From Natronorubrum aibiense (lineage in GTDB: Archaea; Halobacteriota; Halobacteria; Halobacteriales; Natrialbaceae): a stretch of DNA of 64,000 nucleotides. Position numbers and translations under genes: made by a program. Where the stretch lies: contig NZ_CP045488.1 of assembly GCF_009392895.1 (NCBI RefSeq), positions 868,001-932,000 on the forward strand. Direction: 5' to 3'. Positions 16,385 to 40,501 of this stretch are shown in pieces (positions within the stretch are counted from its first letter, which is position 1; every line of letters starts with the position of its first letter). The notes beneath the pieces are model-generated. The model saw only the letters and a program-made list of their open reading frames with translations. It had not been told where the DNA came from and did no database searches.

Positions 16385-17380
16385 CTAGTGGTAGCTGTGC
16401 TCGGGAGTTGCCGAACCGCCGAACAGAGAGTACAGAACCACGAAATAGGCACCAATGATCGGCAGGAACACGGCCGCGAAAATGGCCGTCAGGTTGAGCG
16501 AGAGCGGCGAAACGATGGCGTCGGAAATCGACAGGCCGGCTGCCGGATCGACGGCAGGGTACAGGAGTAACGCGACGAAGAAGACGAACGTAGCTGCAAG
16601 CCCCGCTGCTGAGAGAAATGCGCCGTGGTAGCGCCCACTCGAGGTCGCCACAACAGAGAGTGCTGCAAAGACGAGCGTCGCAGCAACGAGTGCTGCGGTC
16701 GGAAGCGACCAGAGTCTCGACTGCAACTCGGGGTAGCGACCGAACAACACCGCTGCGGTGAGCGCGAACAGAGCGACGTAGATCGCCGTTGCCGTTCGCC
16801 CTCGGCGAACGACCCGCCGCCGGAGCGTCCCGCTGGTCTTGATGGCGAGAAACGCCGCACCGAGGACGACCGAGAGCGCGACGACGGTGAGACCGACGAC
16901 GATCGGGCCGCCCGCGAGCGCTGACGGTTCGCCAAGCACCCAACTCGCGACGAATGCACCGAGCAACAGCGGGGCAGCGGTACTGCCAGCGACGAAACAC
17001 GCGTCCCAGAAACGCGTCCACTGCTGGTCGTCGCGTTCCTCACGAAGTTTCACGCCGAGTCCGCGAAGCCCGAGCGCCAGCAAGATTGCAAAGACCAGCA
17101 CGTAGTGACGACTGAGAATGTTCGCGTACACCGCCGGAAAGCCGGCGAACAGTACCGTCCCGAAAAGGACGAGCCAGACTTCGTTCGCCTTCCAGAGCGG
17201 GCCAAAGGCGGCGAGCATGGTCTTCCGTTCGGTTTCGTCGGCCTCGGCAAACAAGATTCCGAGCCCAAAATCGAAGCCATCGAGCAGGAGATACACGCCG
17301 AGCGCGAGCATCACGAGCCCGAACCAGAGCTCAGGTAACGACTCGAGTACGTACGCCGAGTCCGAGAGAAGCTCAGTCAT
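16385..17380 (-). CDS. cydB: Cytochrome bd oxidase subunit II
   Basis: A 331-residue hydrophobic protein with about eight to nine membrane helices, matching CydB (LLDGFDFGLGILF near residue 35, GPLWKANEVWLVLFG near 75, FAGFPAVYANILSRHYV). It pairs with CydA to form the quinol:oxygen oxidoreductase. Its start overlaps the end of cydA by 8 bases, indicating translational coupling. No CydX-like small gene follows. It would provide a high-affinity, sulfide-tolerant terminal oxidase, which fits the sulfide oxidation genes that follow. Confidence 0.93.
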   Translation of the reverse strand: MTELLSDSAYVLESLPELWFGLVMLALGVYLLLDGFDFGLGILFAEADETERKTMLAAFGPLWKANEVWLVLFGTVLFAGFPAVYANILSRHYVLVFAILLALGLRGLGVKLREERDDQQWTRFWDACFVAGSTAAPLLLGAFVASWVLGEPSALAGGPIVVGLTVVALSVVLGAAFLAIKTSGTLRRRVVRRGRTATAIYVALFALTAAVLFGRYPELQSRLWSLPTAALVAATLVFAALSVVATSSGRYHGAFLSAAGLAATFVFFVALLLYPAVDPAAGLSISDAIVSPLSLNLTAIFAAVFLPIIGAYFVVLYSLFGGSATPEHSYH

Positions 17381-18842
17381 CCGCGATCACCCCCGGTGAG
17401 TCAGGTCGATCGTCTTCTTCGATACCGACCGTGTGTCGCTCGGCCTCCTCGTCGATGAGTCGCTTGAGGACATAGAGGAAGACCCCGAACAGCAACACGT
17501 AGCCGACCACGAACGCGAGCAGCGTGAACGTCGCTTCCGCCGACGACAACGGCGGTGAGACACCGTCTGCAGTCGTGAGCACGTCTTGGATAATCCACGG
17601 TTGCCGGCCGATCTCGGCGACGTACCAGCCAGTGATCAGGGCGACAAATCCCAGCGGTGATGACAGCATCAGCGCCTGCAGATAGCGCTCATCCTCGTAG
17701 AGATCGCCCCTCCAGAGGCGGTACGTGCCCCACGCACCCAGTCCGATAAACCAGAAGCCAAGCCCGACCATGATCCGGAACGACCAGAACACCCACGCGA
17801 CCGGCGGTGAATCGTACTCGAAGTCGTTGAGGCCGGTTACCTCGGCGGTCGGATCACCGCCGCTGGCGAGAAACGACGCGAGCTGAGGGATGCTAATCGT
17901 ATAGAGGTTGTCCGCCCGTGGATCGGTGATCGCCTCGAGGTCAGTCGGGATCGCGATAAGGTGGAGATCAGCCTGTCCGGTCTCGTAGTGGGCTTCCATC
18001 GCGGCGAACTTGTGTGGCTGGGTTTCGGCGACGTGGCGGCCGTACATGTCGCCGTGGATCGCCTGAAACGCCGACGTCACTAACAGGACGACGACGGCGG
18101 CACGGAGCGCGGTGCGCCAGACGTCGCTGTCGCGGTTTTGCCAGACGAAGTAGGCGGCAATCCCCGCGATCACGAGCGTCACGGAGATGATCGCGGCGTT
18201 TTGCATGTGGACATACATCCACGGAAATCGGGGATTGAAAAACGCCGCCATCGGATCGGTGAGTTTGGCGATCGGAACGCCACCCTCCATCACGACTTCG
18301 TACCCGCGTGGCGTCTGCATCCAGGAGTTGACGACGAGAATCCAGAACGCAGACAGCCACGCACCGAGGGCGACGAACACCGACGAGAGCGCATACATCT
18401 TGCCGGAAACACGCTCACGGCCGAACAACAACACGCCAAGTGCGACTGCCTCGAGCATGAACGCCATCTTCGCTTCGAACGAGAGCGGACCTCCGATCAT
18501 CTCGCCGGCAGTCGTCGAGAACGCGGCGAAGTTCGTTCCGAACATAAATCCCATCGGAATGCCGGTAACGGTCCCCATCACGAAACCGACGGCGAAGATT
18601 TTCGTCCAGAACGCACGGAGCCGTGCGTATCGTTCTTCGCCAGTTCTGACTTCCTGGACGGTGACGTAGACGAGAAACGGCGCGAGTCCGACCGAGAGCG
18701 CCGCGAAGATGATGTGAATCGTTATCGTCCAGCCGAACTGGATGCGACTGGCCAGTTCGGGCGTCAGAAACGCCAGTGTCAGTGCATCTCCCGCGTACGC
18801 GGATGCGAGTGCCGATATCGAAAGCTCCGAAGTGGGGAACAT
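17373..18842 (-). CDS. cydA: Cytochrome bd oxidase subunit I
   Basis: About 489 residues starting at the MFPTSEL methionine. An earlier in-frame ATG at 18881 lies where transcription would begin and is less likely. Family marks: RIQFGWTITIHIIFAALSV (haem-ligand histidine), KIFAVGFVMGTVTGIPM, PWMYVHMQNAAIIS (second histidine), GWYVAEIGRQPWIIQ (conserved GRQPW), and nine or so membrane helices. The Q-loop region is of ordinary length. CydA oxidises quinol and carries haems b and d. A perfect palindrome containing the TATA element lies about 55 bases upstream. Confidence 0.94.
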   Translation of the reverse strand: MFPTSELSISALASAYAGDALTLAFLTPELASRIQFGWTITIHIIFAALSVGLAPFLVYVTVQEVRTGEERYARLRAFWTKIFAVGFVMGTVTGIPMGFMFGTNFAAFSTTAGEMIGGPLSFEAKMAFMLEAVALGVLLFGRERVSGKMYALSSVFVALGAWLSAFWILVVNSWMQTPRGYEVVMEGGVPIAKLTDPMAAFFNPRFPWMYVHMQNAAIISVTLVIAGIAAYFVWQNRDSDVWRTALRAAVVVLLVTSAFQAIHGDMYGRHVAETQPHKFAAMEAHYETGQADLHLIAIPTDLEAITDPRADNLYTISIPQLASFLASGGDPTAEVTGLNDFEYDSPPVAWVFWSFRIMVGLGFWFIGLGAWGTYRLWRGDLYEDERYLQALMLSSPLGFVALITGWYVAEIGRQPWIIQDVLTTADGVSPPLSSAEATFTLLAFVVGYVLLFGVFLYVLKRLIDEEAERHTVGIEEDDRPDSPGVIADD

Positions 18843-18895
18843 ACTGTCTACACCTGCTATCCGACGGTACGGATTACACATCGGTAAACTAGTCT

Positions 18896-19089: not shown

Positions 19090-19860
19090 TCAAATCGAGG
19101 AGCCGTCATGACCGTCACCAAACCGCTCGAGGTGTCGCTTGACGAGCGTCGACTCGGCCATTCGGAGCCGGTAGGACAGCGTCGATTCTGGGACGTCGAG
19201 GGTCGACGCGAGCGCCTCGAGAGTACTCTCCCGCGGTCGCTCGTAGTACCCGTGCGAGGCCGCCGCTTCGAGCGCCTCTCGCTGTGGGCCCGACAGACCG
19301 ACGTCGACGATCCCATCGCCGTGCCACTCCGTCGCCGTGCCGAGATGGCCCATCTCGAGTATCACGTCTTCGTCCTCGAGCGCTTCGTGAAGCCGATCGT
19401 AGAGCGTGCTCACGGCCTCGTCGGATCGCATGAGCAGTCGCCACCACGCCGTCTGGCCGCAGTGTCGACTCTCACAGATCGTGCCACAGTTCAAGCTCGT
19501 CGCGGCGAGTGCTTCGACGGCAGGACACGACTGGATCTCGTCGGCATACACGTATATCAATCGTCGTCTCGGGGCACACTCGAGGCGATACCACGACCAC
19601 TGTCCTCCACAGGCCTCGGGGTCGACTGCACGCGGACAGTAATCGCGGTCCTCGAGGGCCGTCTGAAGCCGGTCGGCCGCATCCGGATCGCCCGTGAGCT
19701 GGACGAGTCGCGTGTACGAGCCGGTTCCGAGGACGACGTCGATCGTCGAGAATTCGAGTGTCTCGTGCTGGCGCAAGATCGTCGTGATTCGATCACCGTC
19801 GGGAGCGTACTCGAGGCGGAACGTGAGTTCGCGGAGTCGGTCAGCCGGTGTTGCGCTCAT
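19090..19860 (-). CDS. HTH_10 (Bat/bacterio-opsin activator-like) transcriptional regulator
   Basis: 256 residues. The last about 55 form the haloarchaeal HTH_10 DNA-binding domain (LSGPQREALEAAASHGYYERPR...STLEALASTLDVPESTLSYRLRMAE, split here). The N-terminal part is a variable sensor with several cysteines (C75, C84, C96, C112, C125, C129, C133 approximately, including NCGTICESRHC), which could bind metal or respond to thiol redox. It sits between cydAB and the TauE exporter, all on the minus strand, and probably controls the sulfur or oxidase genes around it. Confidence 0.85.
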   Translation of the reverse strand: MSATPADRLRELTFRLEYAPDGDRITTILRQHETLEFSTIDVVLGTGSYTRLVQLTGDPDAADRLQTALEDRDYCPRAVDPEACGGQWSWYRLECAPRRRLIYVYADEIQSCPAVEALAATSLNCGTICESRHCGQTAWWRLLMRSDEAVSTLYDRLHEALEDEDVILEMGHLGTATEWHGDGIVDVGLSGPQREALEAAASHGYYERPRESTLEALASTLDVPESTLSYRLRMAESTLVKRHLERFGDGHDGSSI

Positions 19861-20079
19861 CGTCCCAGGTACAGTGGCAGATGCACGTGTACGAACTGGC
19901 AGTGGCGTGTCTCTCTCGAGTCTCGGTTCGGTCTCGTCGCTCCCGGAACAGTTGCTCCCATCTCGAGTAGAGGTAGGTACTCACGGTGCCTAAAACGGTC
20001 GAATACGACGATTTTCGGCGTGTGATCGCCGACGAAATCGTTGACGGAAAATATTGCACCAACGTCGACGCTCGAGCCG

Positions 20080-21135
20080 TCAGTCCGCCGCCGACGGCTG
20101 CTGACGGCGAGTTGCGCGAAGCGACTGCAAGCTGGTGTAGACAACCGCGGATGCGACGACCAGCGCCGCACCGAGGACCAACACCAGTCCGACGGTCTCG
20201 AGGAGTTCGTTCCCGAGATAGCTCCCGACCTCGCCGATGCCGACTGCGACGGACCCGGCGAGCAACATCCCGCCGAAGTAGACTTTGATGTCGTCGGCAT
20301 CGACGACGGCGGTCGCAGCCGAGCCGATCCGGGCACCGAGTGCACTTCCGAACAACAGCGGGACGACGATGCCGAGGTCGACGCCGCCACCTTGTCCGTA
20401 GAGGTAACTCCCGATCGCCCCCGAGAACACGATCTCGAAGAGGTCGGTGCCGACAGCGACGGGGACCGGCGCGCCGATGGCATAAATCATCGCCGGCATC
20501 CGGATGAAGCCGCCACCGACGCCGAGAAAGCCCGACAGCAAGCCGGTCGCAAAGGCGACAACCGTGATGACCCACGCCGAGACACGGACGTCACCGCGGA
20601 GCGTGACCATCGGTGGGATACGGACGGTCTGTTGGATGGTTTGTGCGATTTCGGGAATCTCGTAGTCGCTGAGATCCTTGTCGGCGGCGTCGTGGTCGAC
20701 CCCACCGCCACCCTCACCGTTCAGCGCGTCACGCGTGACGAGGAGGCCGATCGCGCCCAGCAGCAAGACGTACACGACGCTGATGATCCCACCTGCTAGC
20801 CCGAGTTCCTCGAGATAGAAGACGGCCGCACGGCCGACCTCGATGCCGATCGTCGTCCCAGCGATCATGAGCCCGCCGAGTTTGTAATCGACCTGCCCGA
20901 GGTCGTGGTGTTTCAGCGTCGCGATGACGGCCGTCCCGAAGACGAATGCCATCCCGCTGCCGACTGCGACCCGCGCCGGATACCCCATCATCAGTAACGC
21001 CGGCGTCACGAGGAACGATCCACCCATGCCGAAGAAGCCAAAGAGGATGCCGACGAGTAGCCCGAAGCCGACGAACAGGGCTAACAGCTCCGGCGAGCCA
21101 CCGATCGTACCCAGAATGGAGTCAAGCAGCGTCAT
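20080..21135 (-). CDS. TauE/SafE family anion exporter
   Basis: A membrane protein of about 351 residues with eight or so helices. Two repeats carry the family's glycine-rich pattern (GFFGMGGSFLVTPALLMMGYP near 35-55 and GFLGVGGGFIRMPAMIYAIG near 220-240). A charged cytoplasmic loop (about 160-205) separates the halves. The family moves sulfite, sulfoacetate and related sulfur anions. The start is the ATG at 21135, with a GTG one codon earlier. It overlaps the small membrane protein gene upstream, so the two are translated together. Next to a persulfide dioxygenase, whose product is sulfite, export of sulfite is the likely task. Confidence 0.87.
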   Translation of the reverse strand: MTLLDSILGTIGGSPELLALFVGFGLLVGILFGFFGMGGSFLVTPALLMMGYPARVAVGSGMAFVFGTAVIATLKHHDLGQVDYKLGGLMIAGTTIGIEVGRAAVFYLEELGLAGGIISVVYVLLLGAIGLLVTRDALNGEGGGGVDHDAADKDLSDYEIPEIAQTIQQTVRIPPMVTLRGDVRVSAWVITVVAFATGLLSGFLGVGGGFIRMPAMIYAIGAPVPVAVGTDLFEIVFSGAIGSYLYGQGGGVDLGIVVPLLFGSALGARIGSAATAVVDADDIKVYFGGMLLAGSVAVGIGEVGSYLGNELLETVGLVLVLGAALVVASAVVYTSLQSLRATRRQQPSAAD

Positions 21136-21283
21136 CACCCCCAGTGACGGTGTCGATCAGGCGCGACCCGACGAGTCGCTCGAGCCCCCCGTACCCGACG
21201 TACAGGACGATCGCCTCGAACAGGACGACACCAATGACGAGTGCCGCCTGCGGGTCCCAGCTCGGAACTTCTAGTCCTGCCAT
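21122..21283 (-). CDS. 53-residue membrane protein coupled to the TauE exporter
   Basis: A short open frame (start MAGLEVPSWDPQAALVIGVV) with one hydrophobic helix (about 13-31) and a polar C-terminal tail. Its stop codon overlaps the start of the TauE gene (TGATGACGCTGCTTGA region). Small proteins of this type, I believe listed as DUF7512, accompany TauE/SafE genes in haloarchaea. It may be an accessory subunit of the transporter. Confidence 0.7.
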   Translation of the reverse strand: MAGLEVPSWDPQAALVIGVVLFEAIVLYVGYGGLERLVGSRLIDTVTGGDDAA

Positions 21284-21404: not shown

Positions 21405-22580
21405 TCAGTCGTCAGCGACGGCGCTGTCCTCGGTCGCCGCACAGCGGTTGGGTCCGAGTTCGAGTTCGTTGCGCTCGTCCTCGCCATCGGGTTCGTAGAC
21501 GCCGAGGTTCGTCTCGATAACTTTCTCGTAGTTTGGCGGCTTCGAGGGCAGGTTCTCGAACATGTGCTCGACGAACTCGTCTTCCTCGAGCGAGATGATC
21601 TCGTTTTTCGCCCAGATGTCGCCGACGGTCGAGAACATCGGCATGCCGGGTTCGACGTCGATGTATTCGCCGTCGTCGGTCAGCGAGAAGTGCCCGGGGA
21701 GGATCTTGACGTGGTCGGGCATCGTGGCGATCTTGTGCTGGAGCGTCTCGTACTGGACGCGAGCACCGCTTTTTGCGTCCTCGCCGGCGAACTGCAGTTC
21801 GGTCCGACCGATCGATTCGACGAACAGCGTGTCGCCGGTCAGCAGCGCCTCGTCTTCGACGAAATAGGACGTCATCCCGGTCGTGTGACCCGGCGTATGA
21901 ACGGCTTTGATTGCGACGTCACCCACCATCACCGTCTCGTTTGGCTCGAGGCCGTCGAACTCGAACTGTGGATCACGCGTGTTCGCTGGCTCACCGAGAT
22001 GGTACGGGACGCCGTACTTGTCGGCGAGATCGCGGCCCGCGGAGATGTGATCGGCGTGAATGTGCGTATCGAAGACGCGTGCGATCTCGTAGCCACGGTT
22101 GGCGGCAGCTCGCTCGAACGCCGCAGTCGCGCGAGTGACATCGACGAGCGCCGCCTTGCCCGTTCGCTTCGAACCGACGAGGTAGCCGAGACAACCCTTC
22201 GCACGCCGCTGGAGCTGCAGGATCTCGAGGTCGTCGCGTTTGGTCGCGATCGGAACGACGTCGTAGACCAGACTCCAGTCTTCCATTCCACCGTCGACGT
22301 ACGCGACGTTTTCGAAGCCTTCGACCTCCTCTAGGTACGTGGCGAACTTCCCGGCGGAACGACCGGTCGCACACGTGGCGACGATTTCGTCGTCGGCCCC
22401 GTACTCGCTGGGATCGAACTCGCCGACGAGTTCGTCGTCGGAGCCGGAGTACTCGACGTTTTCTGCCTCCGAAATCCGCCAGTCCTCGTAGTCATCCGGT
22501 GCTCGAGTGTCGAAGAGCACGTCCAGCGTTCCCGCTTCGATTCGGTCCCGAAGATCCGCTGCCGAAATCGTCTCAACCAT
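21405..22580 (-). CDS. Rhodanese-persulfide dioxygenase fusion (MBL fold)
   Basis: 391 residues. Residues 1-110 are a rhodanese domain with active Cys70 in CATGRSAG. Residues about 115-360 are a metallo-beta-lactamase-fold domain with THIHADH (H173, H175, D177, H178), HTPGHTTG, LLTGDTLF and LPGHF metal ligands, the pattern of ETHE1-like persulfide dioxygenases. The rhodanese would transfer sulfane sulfur to a thiol, and the MBL domain would oxidise the persulfide to sulfite. This order (rhodanese first) is the reverse of some bacterial fusions. The downstream TauE exporter would remove the sulfite. Confidence 0.88.
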   Translation of the reverse strand: MVETISAADLRDRIEAGTLDVLFDTRAPDDYEDWRISEAENVEYSGSDDELVGEFDPSEYGADDEIVATCATGRSAGKFATYLEEVEGFENVAYVDGGMEDWSLVYDVVPIATKRDDLEILQLQRRAKGCLGYLVGSKRTGKAALVDVTRATAAFERAAANRGYEIARVFDTHIHADHISAGRDLADKYGVPYHLGEPANTRDPQFEFDGLEPNETVMVGDVAIKAVHTPGHTTGMTSYFVEDEALLTGDTLFVESIGRTELQFAGEDAKSGARVQYETLQHKIATMPDHVKILPGHFSLTDDGEYIDVEPGMPMFSTVGDIWAKNEIISLEEDEFVEHMFENLPSKPPNYEKVIETNLGVYEPDGEDERNELELGPNRCAATEDSAVADD

Positions 22581-22673
22581 ACGGGAGAGCCTTTGAGAGG
22601 GCTGATATTAAGGGTTAGAGCAGCCAGAATAATTGTCCCCTTCGAGGTGGACCAACCGTCTACCGGAAAGAAT

Positions 22674-23197: not shown

Positions 23198-24262
23198 TCA
23201 GTCGTCGGACGCGGTCAGAGACTGCTCGTCGGGACCGCCAGCATGGCCCTCGTGATCGACAGCAGTCGACTCGAGCGTCGACGAGATCGCGGGGACGTCC
23301 GCAGCCGTCACCTCGCCCTGTGACTCGATCTCCTCGAGCGAGCGCGGGAACGCTCGGAGGTCTTTGTGAACCGCGATCCCCGTGTTCGCCCCTTCTCCCA
23401 TCGCGACCGGGATCTGCTTGTGCCCGGGCGTGAGATCGCCGACTGCATACACGCCTTCGACGGAGGTCTGGCCGTGGTCATCGACAGCGACGGTTCCGTC
23501 GTCGTTTCGCTCGAGTGCTAACGCGTCGACGATGTTATCGTGGTAATCAGAGCCGTACATCGGGAAGCCGCCAGTGTAGGATCGAACCTGTCCATCGGCG
23601 AACTCGAACGACTCGAGCCAGCCGTTCTCGCCTTTGTTCATCCCGACGAGTTCCTCGGAGATGACGTCGACAGGGTGGGCCTCGAGCATCGTTGCCGTCT
23701 CGTCGCTCCATTCGGGTTCCTCGCCCCGAGTGAGCAGATCCACGTCGTCGGTGTAGTTCAGCATGATCATCGCGACGTAGGCGGCGGCCTCGCCAGTCCC
23801 CATCACGTAGACGGGTTCGTCGACGAACATGTAGGCATCACAGTGGAGACAGTAGTGCAGCCCTCGACCAGTCGGCGGAAGCGGCGGCTCTGGGCGGTTG
23901 TCGGTAAAGCCCATCGCGAGGACGACACGACAGACTTGATAGGACTCGTCACCCGTCGAAACACGGAAGCCGTCGTCTGCATCGTCGCCGAGGGGCGTCA
24001 CGTCCTCGACGAGGTCGCGCTGGTACTCCGCGCCGTAGCCCTGAATCTGTTCTCGAGCGGCCTGCAACAGCTCGTTTCCCGACGTCTCCTCACCGATTCC
24101 GATGACGTTGTGCGTCTCGCGCATCATCGCCGCGCGACCCCCGCCGCGGTCGATAACGATCGTATCGAGACCCAGTCGCGTCGTGTAGAGCGCACTCGTC
24201 AGTCCGGCCGGCCCGCCGCCGACGACCGCAACGTCGTAGTCGAATCCGTTGTCCGTATACAT
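23198..24262 (-). CDS. Thioredoxin-reductase-like FAD/NAD(P) oxidoreductase
   Basis: 354 residues with an FAD motif (VAVVGGGPAGLTSALYTTRLG, residues 11-31 region), a central NAD(P) domain with GTGEAAAYVA at about 155, and a redox-active CxxC (C138-L-H-C141), followed by GVYAVGDLTPGHKQIPVAMGEG. The layout is that of thioredoxin reductases, but the C-terminal tail (about 50 residues beyond the flavin motif) is extended and acidic. It would use NADPH to reduce a thioredoxin-like or other disulfide partner. The nearby peroxiredoxin is a plausible client. Confidence 0.87.
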   Translation of the reverse strand: MYTDNGFDYDVAVVGGGPAGLTSALYTTRLGLDTIVIDRGGGRAAMMRETHNVIGIGEETSGNELLQAAREQIQGYGAEYQRDLVEDVTPLGDDADDGFRVSTGDESYQVCRVVLAMGFTDNRPEPPLPPTGRGLHYCLHCDAYMFVDEPVYVMGTGEAAAYVAMIMLNYTDDVDLLTRGEEPEWSDETATMLEAHPVDVISEELVGMNKGENGWLESFEFADGQVRSYTGGFPMYGSDYHDNIVDALALERNDDGTVAVDDHGQTSVEGVYAVGDLTPGHKQIPVAMGEGANTGIAVHKDLRAFPRSLEEIESQGEVTAADVPAISSTLESTAVDHEGHAGGPDEQSLTASDD

Positions 24263-25045: not shown

Positions 25046-25720
25046 CTAGAGCTCTTTCAGGGTGAACCACCAGTCGTAGGATTCATAGCCCGCTTGCTCT
25101 GCTTCTGCGGTGCGTGCCTCTGCGTCCTGAACCGTGCCAGGTGGCGAGAGCAGCGCCTTGTCGCCGAAGTTCTCGTTCTCCGGCCAGTTCGCTGGCAGCG
25201 CAACGCCTTCCTCGTCGGAGGTCTGGAGCGCCTCGAGCGAGCGCAGGACTTCGTCGATGTTGCGGCCGATCTCTTTGGGGTAGTAAAGGACCTGCCGGGT
25301 GATTCCCTCGGGGTCGACGATGAAGACCGCCCGAACGGTCGAGGTCCCCTGACCGGGATGGACCATTCCGAGCGCGTCGGCGACATCGCCGCTTTCGTCC
25401 GCGATGATCGGGAAAGCGATATCCTCGCCGATTTCCTCGTCGATCCACTCCGTCCACTTGATGTGCGAGTGAACGCGGTCGATCGATAGTCCGATCAGTT
25501 CGGCGTTGAGTTCCTCGAACTCCTCGCGGCGCTGCTCGAAGCCGACGAACTCGGTCGTACAGACCGGCGTGAAGTCACCTGGGTGGCTGAAGAGGACGAA
25601 CCACTGTCCCTCGTAGTCCTCAGGGATACTCTTGGGTCCGTGCGTCGTCTCTACCTCGAGTTCGGGGAACCGATCCCCGATGAGCGGGAAACCACTTGCG
25701 TCGCTTTCGTCTTCGGACAT
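25046..25720 (-). CDS. Peroxiredoxin (Prx6-like)
   Basis: 224 residues. The thioredoxin-fold motif [19 protein letters not shown] carries the peroxidatic cysteine (about C54), with the conserved P-x3-T and downstream [10 protein letters not shown] and [25 protein letters not shown]. The long C-terminal arm ([10 protein letters not shown] onward) is typical of archaeal Prx6-type enzymes. It contains no obvious second cysteine near the C-terminus, so it is probably of the 1-Cys mechanism. It reduces peroxides and possibly protein persulfides. The thioredoxin-reductase-like gene nearby could recycle it. Confidence 0.92.
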
Positions 25721-25942
25721 TGCATGTGGGGTTAGGATCCTAGCAAATATAATCCCTTTTCAAAAAGATATTTTCTCTGATTCCGAATGAGAGAGTTGTT
25801 GATCGTGAAATAATTGCTCTACCTGCCAGACGTCCCATACCAGATAGTAGCATACACACACCACGATCACTGACAAAAAATGCGGAGGAGTCGAAGGACG
25901 ATTCGTCGTGTTCGATCCGTTTTGAGAGGGGTGAATCCGTAA

Positions 25943-26788
25943 CTACTTCGATTTCGAGGCCCCCATCCGTCGAAGGAACTCGATGAGGATACCGAGCCCC
26001 TGCCGGACGTCGTCATCACGAAGCGCACCGAGCATCCCCAACAAACCGACTTTTTCCGGTGGCTCCTCTTCGGTGAATGCGCCCAGTCCTGACTCAACGG
26101 TGTCGACGAGCTCTTCGTCGCCGAGTCGATAGCCGAGGACAAGCATATTACCGAGGTTCTGTCCAAGCTGGTACGGTTCGACATCGGCCTCGGCGTAGGT
26201 GGCACTCGCCCCAGCGACCATCATTCGCAGCTCCGCGATCGGTTTTCTGTTCTCGCGGGCGACGTTGACGGCTTCCGGAATGATGTCCTCGGCGAGGTCG
26301 TACGTGACCTCGAGCAACTCGAGCAACTCGATGAGCGTGTCGGTGTTCTCACCGAGTCGCTCGAGCAAAACGAGCGTCTCCTCGCGCTCTAAGGCAACTC
26401 GCAGTCGGGCGAGCGTCTCGCGGTTCTCGCGAACGATCGTCTGAAGTTCCGGAACCAAATCGCGCACGAGATCGTCTGCAACCTCGAGCGTTTCGAGGAG
26501 TTCGACGAGCATGTCAGCGTTTTCACCGACACGCTGGACGAGGACGAGCGTGTCCTCGCTCTCCAGAGCCATACGCAACTCCGCGATCGGCTCCCGAGAG
26601 TCGTGTGCGGCCTCGCGAAGTTCGGGTGCGAGATCCTCGGAGAGTTTCTGGACGACGACAAGGAGTTCGAGTAGTTCCGCGAGTTCCTCGTCGTTTTCCT
26701 CGAGCGTCCGAGCGAGTTTGTTTACTTCGGCGGACTCGAAGGCAGTGCCGTCGAAGTCGCCGTCGACCGATTGATCTTTCTGTGCCAT
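25943..26788 (-). CDS. DUF1641 protein, partner of the SQR-like flavoprotein
   Basis: 281 residues, strongly helical and charged. About five repeats of a roughly 50-residue unit (for example LEALELVRLGENADMLVELLETLEVADDLV type segments, with ELRMALE and ELLELLEVTYDLAEDI) make up residues 20-240. These repeats point to a stacked helical protein with internal duplication. It starts 3 bases after the SQR-like gene ends, and DUF1641 genes regularly follow SQR-type flavoproteins, implying a complex or assembly role at the membrane. Confidence 0.85.
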   Translation of the reverse strand: MAQKDQSVDGDFDGTAFESAEVNKLARTLEENDEELAELLELLVVVQKLSEDLAPELREAAHDSREPIAELRMALESEDTLVLVQRVGENADMLVELLETLEVADDLVRDLVPELQTIVRENRETLARLRVALEREETLVLLERLGENTDTLIELLELLEVTYDLAEDIIPEAVNVARENRKPIAELRMMVAGASATYAEADVEPYQLGQNLGNMLVLGYRLGDEELVDTVESGLGAFTEEEPPEKVGLLGMLGALRDDDVRQGLGILIEFLRRMGASKSK

Positions 26789-26791
26789 TGT

Positions 26792-27964
26792 TTACGGAAG
26801 GGGGTCGTAGCCTTTCATCCAGGCATCCCAGTAGACGGATGGAAGGACGTTGACGTCCATGATCCAGTTCATCTTGCTCTCGACAGGCGCAGAGATGGGG
26901 CCCTCGTAGTCGAATTCGGCAATCAGGGCTTTCCCTTTCTTTGTCAGTAGTGGACAAGCAGCGTAGCCATCGTATTCCGCGCGCAGGGGCATGTCACGGA
27001 TAGCCGACGTGAGGTTCTTGCTGACGACGTGGGCCTGTTTACGGGCGGCTGCGGCCGTCTTCGAGTGTGGTGCGTTCTCACAGTCACCCAGCGCGAAGAC
27101 GTTGTCGTACGCATCGTGCTGGCACGTGTGCTTGTCGATGGTGACGTACTCGCCATCCTCAGAGCCCTCGGTCAGCGGTGAGTTGTCGGTGATCGGTTCC
27201 TGACCGAACTGCGGGGTAACTGGTGCGTAGAGATCGTACTCGATTTCCTCACCGTCCGCACCGTAGACGACGCCCGCGTCGGGGTCAACCTTTTCGACCG
27301 AGAAGTTCTCCTTGAACTCGATATCACGGTCGTTCCAGATCTCGTAGAGTTTGTCGCGATACGGCTGGACGCCGAAGTGGTGTTCGGCGTTTCGCGTCAT
27401 GATGACCTCGACATCGTCGCGGATGCCCTGTCGCTGGAAGTAGTCCTCCGCGAGCATCGTCATCTTCAGCGGCGCGCCAGGACACTTGATCGGCGTGTCG
27501 GGCTGAGTGACGAGGAACGTTCCTCCGTCGAACTCCTCGAGGGCCTCACGCATTTCGAGGGCGGCCTCGTAGTGGTAGAACGGGTAGACGTCGTCGTGGT
27601 CTTCCCACGCCTCAGTCAGGCCGGGCATCGCGCTCGGATCGAGTCGATGGCCAGTCGCAACCACGAGGTAGTCGTACTCGAGATCATCGCTGTCCTCGAG
27701 TTCGACGATCCCAGCATCGGGATCAACACCGGTCACGGCGTCGTGGATGAACTCGACACCCGGCTTAAGCAGGGTCTTGATATCCCGTGACTGCTCGGGC
27801 TCGAGATACCCGAACGGAACGAGATAAAACGAGGGTTGGTAGAAGTGGTCGGTACTCTTGTCGACAACCGTGATTTCCGCTTCGTCACCGTCCAGTTTAC
27901 GCCGGAGAATGTTTGCTGTCATCGCTCCGCCAGAGCCGGCACCCAGTATCGCTATTCTCGTCAT
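26792..27964 (-). CDS. Sulfide:quinone oxidoreductase-like flavoprotein
   Basis: A 390-residue FAD protein of the SQR/Ndh2 superfamily. FAD motif ILGAGSGGAMTANILRRK (6-23), a second nucleotide-binding region, and VFALGDCENAPHSKT. Cys161 in the KCPGAPLK segment and Cys337 in YAACPLLTKKG match the sulfide-reactive pair of SQRs, and a further cysteine lies in HTCQHDAYDN. The C-terminal segment (SKMNWIMDVNVLPSVYWDAWMKG) is amphipathic, suggesting membrane attachment. It would oxidise sulfide to sulfane sulfur and reduce quinone. The following DUF1641 gene supports the call. Confidence 0.87.
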   Translation of the reverse strand: MTRIAILGAGSGGAMTANILRRKLDGDEAEITVVDKSTDHFYQPSFYLVPFGYLEPEQSRDIKTLLKPGVEFIHDAVTGVDPDAGIVELEDSDDLEYDYLVVATGHRLDPSAMPGLTEAWEDHDDVYPFYHYEAALEMREALEEFDGGTFLVTQPDTPIKCPGAPLKMTMLAEDYFQRQGIRDDVEVIMTRNAEHHFGVQPYRDKLYEIWNDRDIEFKENFSVEKVDPDAGVVYGADGEEIEYDLYAPVTPQFGQEPITDNSPLTEGSEDGEYVTIDKHTCQHDAYDNVFALGDCENAPHSKTAAAARKQAHVVSKNLTSAIRDMPLRAEYDGYAACPLLTKKGKALIAEFDYEGPISAPVESKMNWIMDVNVLPSVYWDAWMKGYDPLP

Positions 27965-28148
27965 GTACGACTAGATATCGTAGGCTGATCCATCTAAACA
28001 CACGTCTTTCAGAAACAATTGTGTGAGAGAGGAAACCATAGTGCGGATAGAGAAAATATTGCGTGCTTCATCGGCATCGACGGTGCCGTCGCTCTCGAGC
28101 GGTCCACTCTCGAGATCAATCGCCACCAGAATATCTATTTCAGCCTGT

Positions 28149-29252
28149 TTAGGGCTCCTCAACGTCCGATTCGACCGGCGCATTGATCGAGTTCCCCCAC
28201 TCGATCCACGACCCGTCGTAGTTAGAGACGTGTTGGTACTCGAGCAGTTCCGAGAGCACGAACCAGACGATCGACGATCGCTCCCCGACGTGGCAGTAGA
28301 CGATCGTCTCCCGTTCGGGATCGCTATCGTGACTCCGGAACAGCTGTTCCAACTCCGCTCGGTCTTTGAACGTTCCATTTTCGTCGACGACTTCTGACCA
28401 GGTGATATGGACCGTTCCAGGAATGTGACCAGCGGTGCGAGCCTCGGGGAGATCCTTGTTCGGTGGCTGCGTCAGATCTCCGTTATATTCCGGTGATGAT
28501 CGAACGTCAACGATCGTAACATCCTGTGCAAGCGCCGCTTCGACGTCGGTTCGGTACGCGCGAATCCGCTCGTCAGGAGTGTGCGCGTCGTACTCCTGTG
28601 GGGTGAGCTCAGGACTGTCGGCAGTCGTCGGATAGCCGAGTTCTGTCCACCGCTTCTTTCCGCCATCGAGCAGTTTGACATCAGTGTGGCGATAATATTT
28701 GAACAGCCAGTAGAGATACGCCGCATACTGGTTGTGGTGCGTACTGTAGATCACCACCGTACTCTCGTTCGAAATTCCGCGGGCCCCCACGTACTCTTCG
28801 AAACAGCGTTTGTCAGCGATCCCACAGCCGTTGACGTCGACGAGGTCTCCGAGCACATCGATTTGGACTGCTCCCGGGATATGCGCCTGTCCGTACTCGT
28901 CGTCTGCCTCGACGAGGCGAAGTTCCGGATCATCTCGCTCAAACTCCGACAGTTGTTGTTCAACCCATTCAGGTGAGACGACGACCGAGGATCCTGCCTC
29001 ACTTCGATCTCCACACGAATCAGTTGCAAGCTTGTAACACGTCTGTCGCCCATCGTGGAGTGCAGGCGATGACGCGATCAGTCCAGCCTCATCGAGTTGG
29101 TCCAATCCATACCGAGCCGTCCGCGAGGAAAGCATCGTCTCCTCAGTCAATCCCTTGAGCGTCATCGGCCCGCTATCCTCGAGCGTCTTATAGATGAACT
29201 TTGAACTCGGCGGCAAATCCTCGAGTGCGGCTTCGGTCTGGTTATCCGCCAT
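28149..29252 (-). CDS. Winged-helix plus tandem rhodanese fusion
   Basis: 367 residues. Residues about 15-85 form a winged HTH (SSKFIYKTLEDSGPMTLKGL...TARYGLDQLDEAGLI). Residues about 90-220 and 230-365 are two rhodanese domains of the TST/SseA kind. The first lacks an active cysteine (VIYSTHHNQ in its place), as is normal in that family; the second has Cys320 in CHVGERSS. A thiosulfate sulfurtransferase carrying a DNA-binding or structural wHTH domain is unusual. It could couple sulfane-sulfur handling to gene control. A TATA-like TTGTATATTC lies at about 29281-29290. Confidence 0.85.
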   Translation of the reverse strand: MADNQTEAALEDLPPSSKFIYKTLEDSGPMTLKGLTEETMLSSRTARYGLDQLDEAGLIASSPALHDGRQTCYKLATDSCGDRSEAGSSVVVSPEWVEQQLSEFERDDPELRLVEADDEYGQAHIPGAVQIDVLGDLVDVNGCGIADKRCFEEYVGARGISNESTVVIYSTHHNQYAAYLYWLFKYYRHTDVKLLDGGKKRWTELGYPTTADSPELTPQEYDAHTPDERIRAYRTDVEAALAQDVTIVDVRSSPEYNGDLTQPPNKDLPEARTAGHIPGTVHITWSEVVDENGTFKDRAELEQLFRSHDSDPERETIVYCHVGERSSIVWFVLSELLEYQHVSNYDGSWIEWGNSINAPVESDVEEP

Positions 29253-29823
29253 GGCTGGTCTAGGATGGGATAGTGCACCCGAATATACAATTCTTTCGTC
29301 ACTGCTTTAGACACTTCGTACGGGCATATTTGCCTGACTCGACTCGAGTACTGGCAACAAAGTTGTGAAAATATTGCACGTTGTCTTACACCCGTACTGC
29401 TGTAACCCAAAATAAGTATGCCCAATAATTTCACCTTCTTTGCCGGTCGAACGTCAGCTGTCAGCAGAACAGTTTCGAAACTGCGTCTCGCGAGTGGAAA
29501 GTTCGAAACGACTTCCGCGAGAGTTCGTTTTGGGGGTTGAGCTAGATAGTGGAGAATGCGACAGAATTTTGAGGTACAAGAGACCGTCGTGTGATTGAAT
29601 TAGACCACTTTCTCTCAGAGTCGATTGTTCGAACAATAAACCAGCATACTGATTTCGGAATCGGGGTAATACGTAATTGCCGTTCACGTATTCACCTCTT
29701 ACGAACGGTAACCAAAGACTGCTTATTGGGCCGACACCGGCCTTTCAGTACAACCAGATCTTCGACATTACTCGAGGGAATAATGACACAAGCAAAGAAT
29801 AGACTGTACAAATACAAAAACCT
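29253..29823. other. Intergenic between rhodanese fusion and 5S rRNA
   Basis: AT-rich, with the rhodanese promoter near 29285 and the T-rich tail of the rRNA terminator near 29800-29823. No gene or RNA was recognised; a tRNA-Cys, found here in some haloarchaea, is absent. Confidence 0.5.
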
Positions 29824-36542: not shown

Positions 36543-37829
36543 TCACGAGCCGTCGTCGCCAACAACCGTCGTATCGCCCATCCCCGTGGGTGCGGGGTTC
36601 TCGAGGGACGACCACTCGGCGTCCATCTCGGCATCAGTCAGCAGACAGTCGTCGAGTCGGGCACGCAGATCGTCCATCGACAGGTGTCGACCGATCAGTG
36701 CGAGACGCGTCTCGCGGTCGCCCCACTTTTCGTCCCACGAGAGATCTGGCTGGCTTTCGCGGAACGCTGCCTGTCGTTCGTCCGAGAGACTGGCGATCCA
36801 GCGGCCGGTAACCTCGAGGCACGTCTCCGTGCCGGCGTAGCTCATCGTGATCGCCTGCCGTTCGCGACCGGCGATCCAACACAGCCCCTTCGCGCGCACG
36901 AGGCCGGCCGGCAGGTCGGCGAGCACGGCCAAAAAACGTTCGGGGTGGAAGGGACGCCGCCGATGATAGGTGTCGACCTCGATGCCGTATCGTTCCGGCG
37001 GGTGGACGTGATCGTGGTGGTCGTGGCTGTGGTCATCGTGACCATGGTTGTGATCGTTGTCCCCGTGGTCGTGCTCGTCAGAGCTGGACTCGGGCGGAGA
37101 CCCATCGTGAGCCGCGTCGGCCTGAATCATCTGTTTCCAGCCGGCAGCGTCGGATGCTGCCTCGAGGTCGAACCGTCCACTGTCGAGCAACATCGCGGGA
37201 TCGACAGTGCCGTACTCGGTTGTCACGACTTCGGCGCGGGGCTGGAGGGTCTCGAGCAGTGCCACGACCTGCTCGCGTTCGGCGTCGCTGACGAGATCGC
37301 ATTTGTTGACGACGAGCAGATCACAGAACTCGATTTGTTCGAGCAGCAGGTCGCCCAGTGGCCGGCTGCCGGTCTCGTCTGCCCCCTGCTGGGCCGGCGG
37401 CGCTGCGACAGTGTTGTCTCCAAACCGGTCGTAAAACCGTCGGGCATCGACGACGGTGACAACGGCGTCGAGATCGTATGGCCCGCCCGCAGGCCCGCGG
37501 ATGAACTGGCGGGCGATCGGTTCAGGTTCGCCGACACCGGAGGCTTCAACGACCAGATACTCGAAGTCGTGTTCCTTCCAGAGTTGGATGACCGACCGCG
37601 AGAGTTCGCTGCCGAGACTACAGCAAATACAGCCGTTCTCGAGGGCGAGGACTTCCTCGCCGGTCGTCAGATCGGTTCGGGCTTCGACGAGGTCGGCGTC
37701 GACGTTGACCGCGCCGACATCGTTGACCAGCACGGCAATCTCGCGCTCGTCTTCCTCGAGGAGCCGCGACAGCAGCGTCGTCTTGCCAGCACCGAGTTCG
37801 CCACAGAGGATGGTGACCGGAACGCTCAT
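36543..37829 (-). CDS. CobW/ZNG-type GTPase metallochaperone with His-rich loop
   Basis: 428 residues. G1 motif GELGAGKTT (10-18), the metal-binding CICC (about 69-72) characteristic of COG0523 proteins, NKCD for guanine specificity, and a very long His/Asp loop (HDHGDNDHNHGHDDHSHDHH type, about 250-275). A C-terminal CobW_C domain (RRRPFHPERFLAVL onward) follows. The family delivers zinc or cobalt to target enzymes. The histidine loop suggests zinc or nickel buffering. Its ATG directly follows the stop of a 25-codon reading frame. Confidence 0.88.
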   Translation of the reverse strand: MSVPVTILCGELGAGKTTLLSRLLEEDEREIAVLVNDVGAVNVDADLVEARTDLTTGEEVLALENGCICCSLGSELSRSVIQLWKEHDFEYLVVEASGVGEPEPIARQFIRGPAGGPYDLDAVVTVVDARRFYDRFGDNTVAAPPAQQGADETGSRPLGDLLLEQIEFCDLLVVNKCDLVSDAEREQVVALLETLQPRAEVVTTEYGTVDPAMLLDSGRFDLEAASDAAGWKQMIQADAAHDGSPPESSSDEHDHGDNDHNHGHDDHSHDHHDHVHPPERYGIEVDTYHRRRPFHPERFLAVLADLPAGLVRAKGLCWIAGRERQAITMSYAGTETCLEVTGRWIASLSDERQAAFRESQPDLSWDEKWGDRETRLALIGRHLSMDDLRARLDDCLLTDAEMDAEWSSLENPAPTGMGDTTVVGDDGS

Positions 37830-38647: not shown

Positions 38648-39010
38648 GCCCGGATTCGGCCCGGCTTTCGATATAAACGTCCGCGTCGGCAGCCATCGCT
38701 GGCCAAGCGCGCTCGAACAGCTGTGGGACTGACGCGGGCCGTGATCGTCACGAGAAGCGGACGATTGGTGACGGTAGCCGCACCGAACACGGCCGTTCAC
38801 CTAGTCGTCGACGACTTGTAGCGCTCGGCAGGGACGTATCCGAGCGACTCGAGGGCAACGCTCCCGGTCGCAACCGCTGATCAGAGCAGGTACGTCACGG
38901 TACAGCAACCTACCGATCTTGAACACCGTAATCGTACGGAACACGTGTCTGACGCGCCGGTTTCAAAGGGAGCGCATACTCAAGGACGACGCGTTGCAGA
39001 TGGAACTGTC
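38648..39010. other. Divergent intergenic region
   Basis: It separates the PDDEXK gene and the beta-helix lipoprotein. The minus-strand TATA at about 38670 is clear. No plus-strand promoter could be fixed with confidence, and nothing else was seen. Confidence 0.4.
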
Positions 39011-40501
39011 ATGGGAGATTCAGACCCCGACGGATCAGGGATCAGACGTCGATCGTATCTCTACGGGAGCGCCGTTACGGTGAGTGGACTCGCGGGGTGT
39101 CTCGGCGCGACGGACGACCGAACAGTGCGCACGGGAACGGACGAACAGCAGTCGACAGATACCCGTTCGAACGGCGATCAAACTGACGAGCAGGGTGACG
39201 AAGGTGGCGACGAGACGCAGGACGCCGACTCGATCACCGAGTGTACGACCATCACCGAACCGGGAACGTACGCGCTGGCGGCCGACCTCGAGGCCGAGTC
39301 GGGCGAGACCTGCCTCGAGATCCGTGCGAGCGACGTCACGCTCGACGGACAGGGGCGGACGATCGCTGGCAGCGGGCCGACCGATCCGTTCGAGGAGCCG
39401 TTCGAACCGGCGAACAGCGGCGTACTCGTTCAGCCAGAGCTGACGGCCGCGAAAGAGAAACGGAAGAAAGCCGGCGTCACGCAGCCGCAGACCGACGGCA
39501 TCTCGAACGTGACGGTTCGGAATCTCACCGTCGAGGGGTTCGACGCCGGCATCGTCTTCGAGGCGGTAACGGGAGGTGCGATCACTGAGACGGCCGTGAC
39601 GGCCACGCAGTACGGACTCTCTCTGATCCGGTCGGCCGAGAATATGCTCCGTGGAAACGAGACGTCTGGGTGCGGCCGCAGCGGGATTCGACTCGAGCGC
39701 GCGAACGGGAATCTACTGGAGGCGAACACCGCAACCGGGAACGGGATGCCCGCATCGGAAACTGGTGGCGTCGTCCTTGTCGACTCGGACGAGAACCGGC
39801 TGGTCCGCAACGACGTCGACGGGAACATCGCTGGGATCGAACTCACCGGCTCACATGCTAATACGTTCGAGAAAAACAGCGTAAGCGACAACATTTTCGA
39901 CGGCATTGTCTTGTTCGACTCGCGGGGGAATACGCTCACCGGAAACACCGCGAATTCGAACACTAATCTCTACGGTATCATTCTCGTCGATTCGGACGAG
40001 ACCACGCTCGAGGAAAACACCGCTAACGGGAACGCACAGGGAGGACTCTTGCTCGTGCAGTCGGATAATAATACGCTCGTCGGGAACACGGCCAACGAAA
40101 ACGGACTCGATGGTGGCGTTATCCTCACGCTGTCCGATGGGAACACGCTCTCGAACAACACCGCAAACGACAACGTCGGGGCGAGCGCGATCGAGGGTCC
40201 CGACGTCGATCCCACGCTCGGTCCCGGCTTCAACCTGCTCGACTCGAGTTTCAACCGGGGGCGCGCCAACACCGCGCGAGGCAACGATGGCGGACCGATA
40301 CAGATCGTTGGCGGCGAGGGCAACAGCATCGAAATCAACGGGGTCGTCTACACCGACGCGACTGCGGACGAAACCTCACTCGAGACCGACGAGCAACCGA
40401 TACTGTCGGAACCACTCGAGGTGCTCGTCGAAACCGGCGAGCGAGAACCACTCGTAGAACTGGTCGACGTGCTCGACGAAGGGCTGCCGTTCGACGGGTA
40501 G
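39011..40501 (+). CDS. Right-handed beta-helix lipoprotein (NosD/PbH1 type)
   Basis: About 496 residues from the ATG at 39011; a GTG at 38945 in the same frame is possible. RRRSYLYGSAVTVSGLAGC gives a twin-arginine lipoprotein signal with acylated Cys30. An acidic, threonine-rich linker follows, then about ten parallel beta-helix turns with the repeated GN-T-x-N pattern (for example NRLVRNDVDGNIAGIELTGS, NTLTGNTANSN). Such proteins bind or cleave surface polysaccharides, or act as scaffolds (as NosD). The substrate is unknown. Confidence 0.85.
   Translation: MGDSDPDGSGIRRRSYLYGSAVTVSGLAGCLGATDDRTVRTGTDEQQSTDTRSNGDQTDEQGDEGGDETQDADSITECTTITEPGTYALAADLEAESGETCLEIRASDVTLDGQGRTIAGSGPTDPFEEPFEPANSGVLVQPELTAAKEKRKKAGVTQPQTDGISNVTVRNLTVEGFDAGIVFEAVTGGAITETAVTATQYGLSLIRSAENMLRGNETSGCGRSGIRLERANGNLLEANTATGNGMPASETGGVVLVDSDENRLVRNDVDGNIAGIELTGSHANTFEKNSVSDNIFDGIVLFDSRGNTLTGNTANSNTNLYGIILVDSDETTLEENTANGNAQGGLLLVQSDNNTLVGNTANENGLDGGVILTLSDGNTLSNNTANDNVGASAIEGPDVDPTLGPGFNLLDSSFNRGRANTARGNDGGPIQIVGGEGNSIEINGVVYTDATADETSLETDEQPILSEPLEVLVETGEREPLVELVDVLDEGLPFDG

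Follow-up and report, generated by a model that had tools for sequence, protein, structure and literature searches.

A protein encoded in a 64,000-nucleotide stretch of the haloarchaeon Natronorubrum aibiense (contig NZ_CP045488.1, positions 868,001 to 932,000 of the forward strand; this whole stretch is referred to as the window) probably senses reactive sulfur and itself switches sulfide-oxidation genes, since a matching DNA signal precedes those genes. Its open reading frame (ORF) begins with ATG at the 5′ end of 28149-29252 on the reverse strand, the boundaries given in a preliminary description of this DNA, and specifies 367 residues in which a winged helix-turn-helix (wHTH) domain is fused to two rhodanese domains (Table 1). 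The gene heads a run that continues with sulfide:quinone reductase (SQR), DUF1641, peroxiredoxin (PRX), a thioredoxin-reductase-like (TrxR-like) flavoprotein, a rhodanese-metallo-beta-lactamase (rhodanese-MBL) protein, TauE/SafE, an HTH_10 regulator and cytochrome bd. We consider it fairly likely that the fusion protein is a one-component regulator of sulfide and sulfane-sulfur oxidation with a sulfurtransferase as its effector domain.

The preliminary description had read the chain as an N-terminal wHTH followed by two rhodanese domains, with an active Cys320 in the second only, and the ORF, Pfam, AlphaFold2 and Foldseek all bear this out. The wHTH (residues 12-75) is followed by a poorly conserved linker (78-88) and the two rhodanese domains, for which Pfam Rhodanese gave two matches (E 1e-28, 100.2 bits; cut-off 22.2). 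AlphaFold2 modelled the wHTH alone with a predicted local distance difference test score (pLDDT) of 88.2, with helices at 15-27, 32-39 and 43-55 and strands at 59-63 and 71-75, and the whole chain as a tandem rhodanese after a wHTH (pLDDT 83.5, predicted template modelling score 0.73). The top Foldseek matches of the chain in the PDB were the Mycobacterium tuberculosis thiosulfate sulfurtransferases (TSTs) CysA3 and CysA2, which are also the best PDB matches of the C-terminal ~280 residues by sequence and fold (41-42% identity). As in CysA-type TSTs, two rhodanese domains stand in tandem and the second has a Cys at the catalytic position: Cys320 lies in the loop CHVGERSS, and the corresponding first-domain loop, read from the sequence as YSTHHN, has none. 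The C-terminal part is thus predicted to be a CysA-type TST. Foldseek placed the wHTH with MarR-type regulators; its score against the MarR family (PF01047), 22.5 bits alone and 18.7 for the whole chain, lies below the Pfam curated cut-off of 24.6. No match to PF01978 that would place it with TrmB/OxsR was found in the chain (Pfam, E ≤ 0.1) or in the wHTH alone (E ≤ 1). By sequence it is closest to small free-standing wHTH proteins of haloarchaea (the ‘LPPSAKLV..ARTVRYAL’ type), which are also encoded in its own genome.

The domain search that the preliminary description had proposed found the fusion in 28 of 391 genomes of class Halobacteria, in 18 of 86 genera, and a wHTH-only query recovered the identical 28 genomes plus second copies. 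Because the full-length ORF is conserved in these 28 genomes, a frame or assembly artefact at the join was ruled out. Carriers include Natronorubrum thiooxidans, N. bangense, N. sulfidifaciens, Natrialba swarupiae, Natronolimnohabitans innermongolicus and Natribaculum breve; in N. bangense, Natronosalvus amylolyticus and Salarchaeum sp. JOR-1 the gene is on a plasmid, annotated only as ‘rhodanese-like domain-containing protein’. A tree of 71 TST domains (two rows, L004_S and L002_S, are one TST from overlapping loci) splits the 36 aligned fusion copies from 35 unfused domains at one branch, a single state change with support 94/93. The fusion is a conserved, single-origin haloarchaeal family. 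None was found outside Halobacteria in a 246-genome sample of the phylum, in phages, or among the 80 loci retained from 273 relatives in genome contigs, the last a weak negative as most query patterns were rhodanese. A Sinorhizobium match to query residues 18-360 was ruled out: its N-terminal piece lies in another frame overlapping the upstream gene, and the remainder is an SseA-like protein. The small free-standing wHTH proteins occur in nearly all relatives: 60 of 61 genomes matched the wHTH at E ≤ 1e-8.

Pairwise identity among the fusions (L050, an interrupted copy, omitted) averages 0.74 in the wHTH, the best-conserved domain of the chain; the rhodanese domains reach 0.59 and 0.64, the linker 0.23. 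Over 35 fused and free wHTHs, 12 columns are invariant, with the signature LPPS, L24, R44-T45, D67-x-R69 and Y73. R44, T45, D67 and R69, the likely DNA-contact positions, are among them, and none of the 41 free wHTHs compared (44 loci, 3 of them without a match at E ≤ 1e-4) departs from D67 or R69. Loss of DNA-contact residues in homologues, which the preliminary description had named as evidence against its proposal, was therefore not seen.

Two cysteines stand out in an alignment of 33 fusions, which excludes the partial L095 and the loci whose sequences duplicate others (L088-L091, L093 and L094) and contains the near-copies L075/L076 and L084/L085. Cys320 is kept in 32/33, the sole exception being L050, and Cys72, in the wing motif DGRQTCY, in 31/33; both are kept in all three additional second-copy fusions, which brings Cys72 to 34/36. 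One exception, L051, has a Cys at position 70 instead. At position 72 the 41 free wHTHs have 33 Leu, 5 Lys and one each of Val, Ile and Gln, and Cys in none. Because Cys72 occurs in 34/36 fusions versus 0/41 free wHTHs, sequence comparison indicates that a Cys in the presumed DNA-contacting wing accompanies the sulfurtransferase domain. Cys80, Cys143 and Cys150 were ruled out as sensors (conserved in 6/33, 17/33 and 12/33, respectively). In genome G046 the fusion gene of L050 (237-1367) is broken by a TGA before the active-loop Cys; the same genome has an uninterrupted divergent copy, L051.

A 25-bp dyad with an A/T core, gtagcnGaAATaATTtCngctac, precedes the genes for the fusion, SQR, rhodanese-MBL and peroxiredoxin alike, and a palindromic expectation-maximization model of width 25 has the consensus ngtagcnGaAATaATTtCngctacn. 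Position weight matrices (PWMs) were built separately for clade A (18 Natrialbaceae-type loci) and clade B (15 others), with the shuffled 95% level as threshold. The clade A model exceeded it in clade B upstream of 13/15 fusion, 11/13 SQR, 11/13 rhodanese-MBL and 10/11 peroxiredoxin genes, and the clade B model in clade A upstream of 12/18, 16/16, 15/17 and 10/16, respectively. Upstream regions of DUF1641, an intra-operon gene, had no operator in either cross-clade test (0/13 and 0/16). A scan of 626,202 bases, each clade's loci with the model of the other, gave 80 matches of at least 10 bits, 69 of them upstream of one of these four genes. These tests and the position counts below use the other clade's PWM; fusion-locus promoter scores in the comparison with fusion-free genomes and in the per-locus listing are partly in-sample.

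The operator also follows the fusion from genome to genome. It was absent at 8 bits or more from the promoters of distant SQR (0/12) and distant rhodanese-MBL genes (0/20) of fusion-free genomes. Second SQR copies that adjoin a second fusion (L274-L276) have a site at -93 in 3/3 cases, with one model or both. In G065 an SQR gene ~108 kb away from the fusion has one at -53 (11.2 bits with PWM B, 8.2 with PWM A). The operator is thus recurrent at sulfur promoters and tied to the presence of the fusion. The preliminary description had proposed that the protein binds DNA and controls the sulfur genes; the conserved contact residues and the cross-validated dyad at sulfur promoters now lend this good, though indirect, support, and binding itself is what we infer. 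Neither Cys72 nor the repeated operator figured in that description.

The 11-mer core of the dyad, GMAATWWTTKC, was rejected as a genome-wide marker: it gave 23 strand matches, counted here as 17 distinct sites, in 4.35 Mb (5 matches with the reversed pattern), of which 4/17 lie inside the sulfur cluster and several others have no evident adjacent sulfur gene. A perfect core in the same genome (L309, C1:599290) lies 123 nt ahead of an ORF resembling a lipoprotein ABC substrate-binding protein, a possible target in trans. A second dyad, TTAC-N8-14-GTAA, is found near the operator in 10/33 fusion promoters (at 29253-29440 in the window and in several clade A loci); the other gene groups examined lack it altogether.

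The sites hold characteristic positions relative to start codons, with a shuffled expectation of at most 0.2 for each position class. Cross-clade centres fall at -90 to -95 in 26/29 SQR promoters; at -50 to -54 in 18/30, -101 to -106 in 13/30 and -112 to -116 in 6/30 rhodanese-MBL promoters; and at -50 to -54 in 18/27 and -90 to -95 in 11/27 peroxiredoxin promoters (the peroxiredoxin start codons of L084 and of the second entry of L082 look misplaced). The commonest spacings between sites were 51, 40, 41, 42, 55, 52 and 63, most of them near 4, 5 or 6 helical turns, which gives a basic series of 40, 51 and 62 bp. The promoter consensus has a sequence at about -38 to -25 that we interpret as a B recognition element (BRE) and TATA box, so the sites adjoin the basal promoter on its upstream side. 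Two papers state for archaeal regulators of the TrmB family that a site upstream of BRE/TATA goes with activation and one downstream with repression (PMC4158304; PMC9426492). Since the sites are upstream-adjacent to the BRE/TATA-like sequence, this rule, applied by analogy, tips the balance slightly towards activation by the fusion protein.

We propose the following mechanism. A winged-helix homodimer would bind the 25-bp dyad in the SQR, rhodanese-hydrolase and peroxiredoxin promoters, at -52 and about -92 (or -103, -114) relative to the start codons, and in its own promoter region; that the protein binds this operator is the step in which we place most confidence. From these sites, at a fixed helical phase upstream of the BRE/TATA-like sequence, it would activate by helping TBP/TFB. 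Its effector domain, a thiosulfate-type sulfurtransferase predicted to be functional, would be loaded at Cys320 with sulfane sulfur from SQR or from uptake. The persulfide, probably handed to Cys72 in the DNA-binding wing, would alter operator affinity and so set the expression of SQR, persulfide dioxygenase, peroxiredoxin, the sulfite exporter and cytochrome bd. Cys320, the fusion-specific wing Cys72 and the operon content make sulfane sulfur the likely signal; for Cys72 as a sensing or transfer residue the chances appear about even. A self-modifying sensor, in which Cys320 passes sulfane sulfur to Cys72 within the dimer so that catalytic flux, not ligand concentration, is read as activation of the sulfide-oxidation regulon, is a speculative extension that we think is rather improbable.

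Several points weigh against this reading. The motif is absent from a second SQR promoter that adjoins an unfused TST (L277) and from two further second SQR copies in fusion genomes (L278, L279), and the fusion promoters of L038, L046 and L049 have no site. In fusion-free G373, whose TST has no wHTH, the SQR promoter scores 11.2 bits with one PWM and 7.1 with the other, the motif-like site lying at -83, off the usual positions. Counts for the fusion and rhodanese-MBL promoters overlap because 16/33 loci share one divergent intergenic region, and the second-copy fusion L046 has no Cys at or near position 72. The promoters of the free wHTH genes did not have the motif clearly beyond chance (24 loci scanned; among those listed, PWM A gave 4 at p<0.05 and PWM B gave 2), so that autoregulation of the free wHTHs through it was not supported. 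The operator could also belong to another regulator, encoded elsewhere.

Three other explanations have to be weighed. The wHTH could be a structural or dimerisation appendage of an ordinary TST, with the dyad bound by an unrelated factor such as the HTH_10 protein or a distant regulator; an HTH_10 gene does lie within the window, and one also adjoins the unfused TST in G373 and G343. HTH_10 homologues are nevertheless present in just 6/33 fusion loci as retrieved, the motif tracks the fusion across genomes, second loci with a second fusion included (L274-L276), and the DNA-contact positions are conserved in what is the most conserved domain of the chain. We regard this explanation as very improbable. 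Somewhat less improbable, though still unlikely, is a regulator of the same genes for which the TST is simply a co-expressed enzyme and the signal is general thiol oxidation, for example an intersubunit Cys72-Cys72 disulfide. The single conserved Cys of the wHTH and the peroxiredoxin and TrxR-like genes of the cluster would suit it, as would a haloarchaeal precedent, OxsR, described in PMC9426492 as dimerising through a disulfide, with a single essential Cys24 and a motif that lies upstream of BRE/TATA. The restriction of Cys72 to sulfurtransferase-fused wHTHs argues against it, however, and the remaining cluster genes handle sulfide and persulfide.

The last alternative leaves the signal in place and reverses the sign. 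A classical repressor released by sulfane sulfur would resemble BigR and SqrR: the sulfide-responsive bacterial wHTHs of equivalent operons repress (BigR; PMC5823870), and two phased sites could cooperatively block access to the promoter. Site placement, by contrast, goes with activation under the TrmB rule (PMC4158304), and repression appears doubtful to us. Taken together, these considerations leave a sulfur-sensing one-component regulator, with activation slightly favoured, as our preferred reading.

The neighbourhood of the gene (Table 1) is itself conserved. Of 33 fusion loci, several of which end early at contig ends, 29 contain SQR, 29 rhodanese-MBL and 26 peroxiredoxin, and rhodanese-MBL is divergent from the fusion, with one intergenic region between, in 16/33. 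Close SQR homologues (E ≤ 1e-150) occur in 28/28 fusion genomes and 1/363 others, and close rhodanese-MBL homologues (E ≤ 1e-175) in 27/28 and 0/363. At second-type SQR-DUF1641 loci of G373 (L325, 4253-11081) and G343 (L326), a tandem rhodanese without wHTH stands beside an HTH_10/HVO_2928-like regulator gene, an arrangement that looks like an exchange of regulators. Three loci (the window, L038 and L073) have an operator-like site upstream of the HTH_10 regulator gene (9.2, 13.7 and 19.0 bits cross-clade), which suggests a regulator cascade. Beyond a gene-poor stretch upstream of the fusion lie a CobW-type GTPase gene (36543-37829, reverse strand) and a NosD/beta-helix gene (38945-40501, forward strand).

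Table 1. Window positions of the fusion gene and its parts, the candidate operators and the neighbouring genes
Feature	Position	Strand	Remarks
wHTH-tandem rhodanese fusion protein	28149..29252	-	367 aa
Winged-helix domain, residues 12-75 (recognition helix 43-55; wing 62-74, including Cys72)	29028..29219	-	AlphaFold2 secondary structure and conservation
Cys72 codon, wing (RQTCY)	29037..29039	-	in 34/36 fusions, 0/41 free wHTHs
Cys320 codon, rhodanese active loop (CHVGERSS)	28293..28295	-	
Candidate operator, fusion gene	29415..29439	.	centre -175; 12.5 bits with the other clade's PWM
Second candidate operator, fusion gene, contains GCAATATTTTC	29361..29385	.	centre -120/-121; 6.1 bits cross-clade
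Candidate operator, SQR	28046..28070	.	centre -93/-94; 10.3 bits cross-clade
Candidate operator, peroxiredoxin (GCAATTATTTC at 25807-25817)	25800..25824	.	centre -92; in-sample score 18
Second candidate operator, peroxiredoxin	25760..25784	.	centre -52; 7.0 bits cross-clade
Candidate operator, rhodanese-MBL gene	22619..22643	.	centre -51; 8.9 bits cross-clade
Candidate operator, HVO_2928/HTH_10 gene	20040..20064	.	centre -192; 9.2 bits cross-clade
Type III sulfide:quinone reductase-like flavoprotein (SQR)	26792..27964	-	NF049943, 316.2 bits; below curated cut-off 525
DUF1641 protein	25943..26788	-	
Peroxiredoxin	25046..25720	-	NF009668, above cut-off
Thioredoxin-reductase-like flavoprotein	23198..24262	-	
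Rhodanese + metallo-beta-lactamase fold protein (persulfide-dioxygenase-like)	21405..22580	-	
TauE/SafE sulfite exporter family	20080..21138	-	
HVO_2928_N + HTH_10 regulator	19090..19860	-	
Cytochrome bd oxidase subunits I and II	16385..18881	-	

The preliminary description knew of no characterised protein of this architecture, and in the open-access papers searched no description was found of a wHTH fused to tandem rhodanese domains or of a haloarchaeal sulfide regulator. If the reading is correct, the fusion is, within that literature, the first candidate haloarchaeal sulfide/persulfide regulator with an operator, and the defined 25-bp site and two cysteines make the question of sensing directly testable.

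Among known systems, the closest parallel is BigR of Xylella and Agrobacterium, a wHTH repressor of a sulfide-detoxification operon whose products include a TauE sulfite exporter and a sulfur dioxygenase of rhodanese-like/ETHE1 type, according to PMC5823870. Here, too, a wHTH regulator is encoded beside rhodanese-MBL/persulfide-dioxygenase-like and TauE genes, but BigR is a separate chain, has two sensing cysteines (Cys42 and Cys108) and represses (PMC5823870). The fusion, unlike BigR, has one wing Cys, a tandem rhodanese in the chain and an activator-like placement of sites. Because Cys72 is the sole conserved Cys of its wHTH (Cys80 occurs in 6/33), the two-cysteine switch of the ArsR-type BigR/SqrR regulators is missing and the fusion is not a member of that group, though it may work like one. 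The persulfide sensors SqrR, YgaV and CstR are likewise regulators that respond to sulfide or sulfane sulfur; they are not known to have an enzyme domain in the chain, and they use multi-cysteine sensing chemistry. OxsR of Haloferax volcanii shares with the fusion a haloarchaeal wHTH with one conserved Cys and a motif upstream of BRE/TATA, which in OxsR goes with activation (PMC9426492), but it is a TrmB-family protein of a single wHTH with no enzyme domain, an oxidative-stress regulon and a CG-rich motif. CysA2 and CysA3 differ in being TSTs without a DNA-binding domain. A DNA-binding and an enzyme domain do share one chain in the single-domain ArsR-rhodanese fusions of bacteria and in trigger enzymes such as BirA, which differ from the present fusion in the HTH family or in the enzyme; among fusions of these kinds, no tandem CysA-type TST was found. 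In the literature found, bacteria sense sulfide with one protein and produce and consume sulfane sulfur with others, the sulfurtransferases, and a fused sensor-enzyme, if this is what the haloarchaeal protein is, would place flux sensing within one polypeptide.
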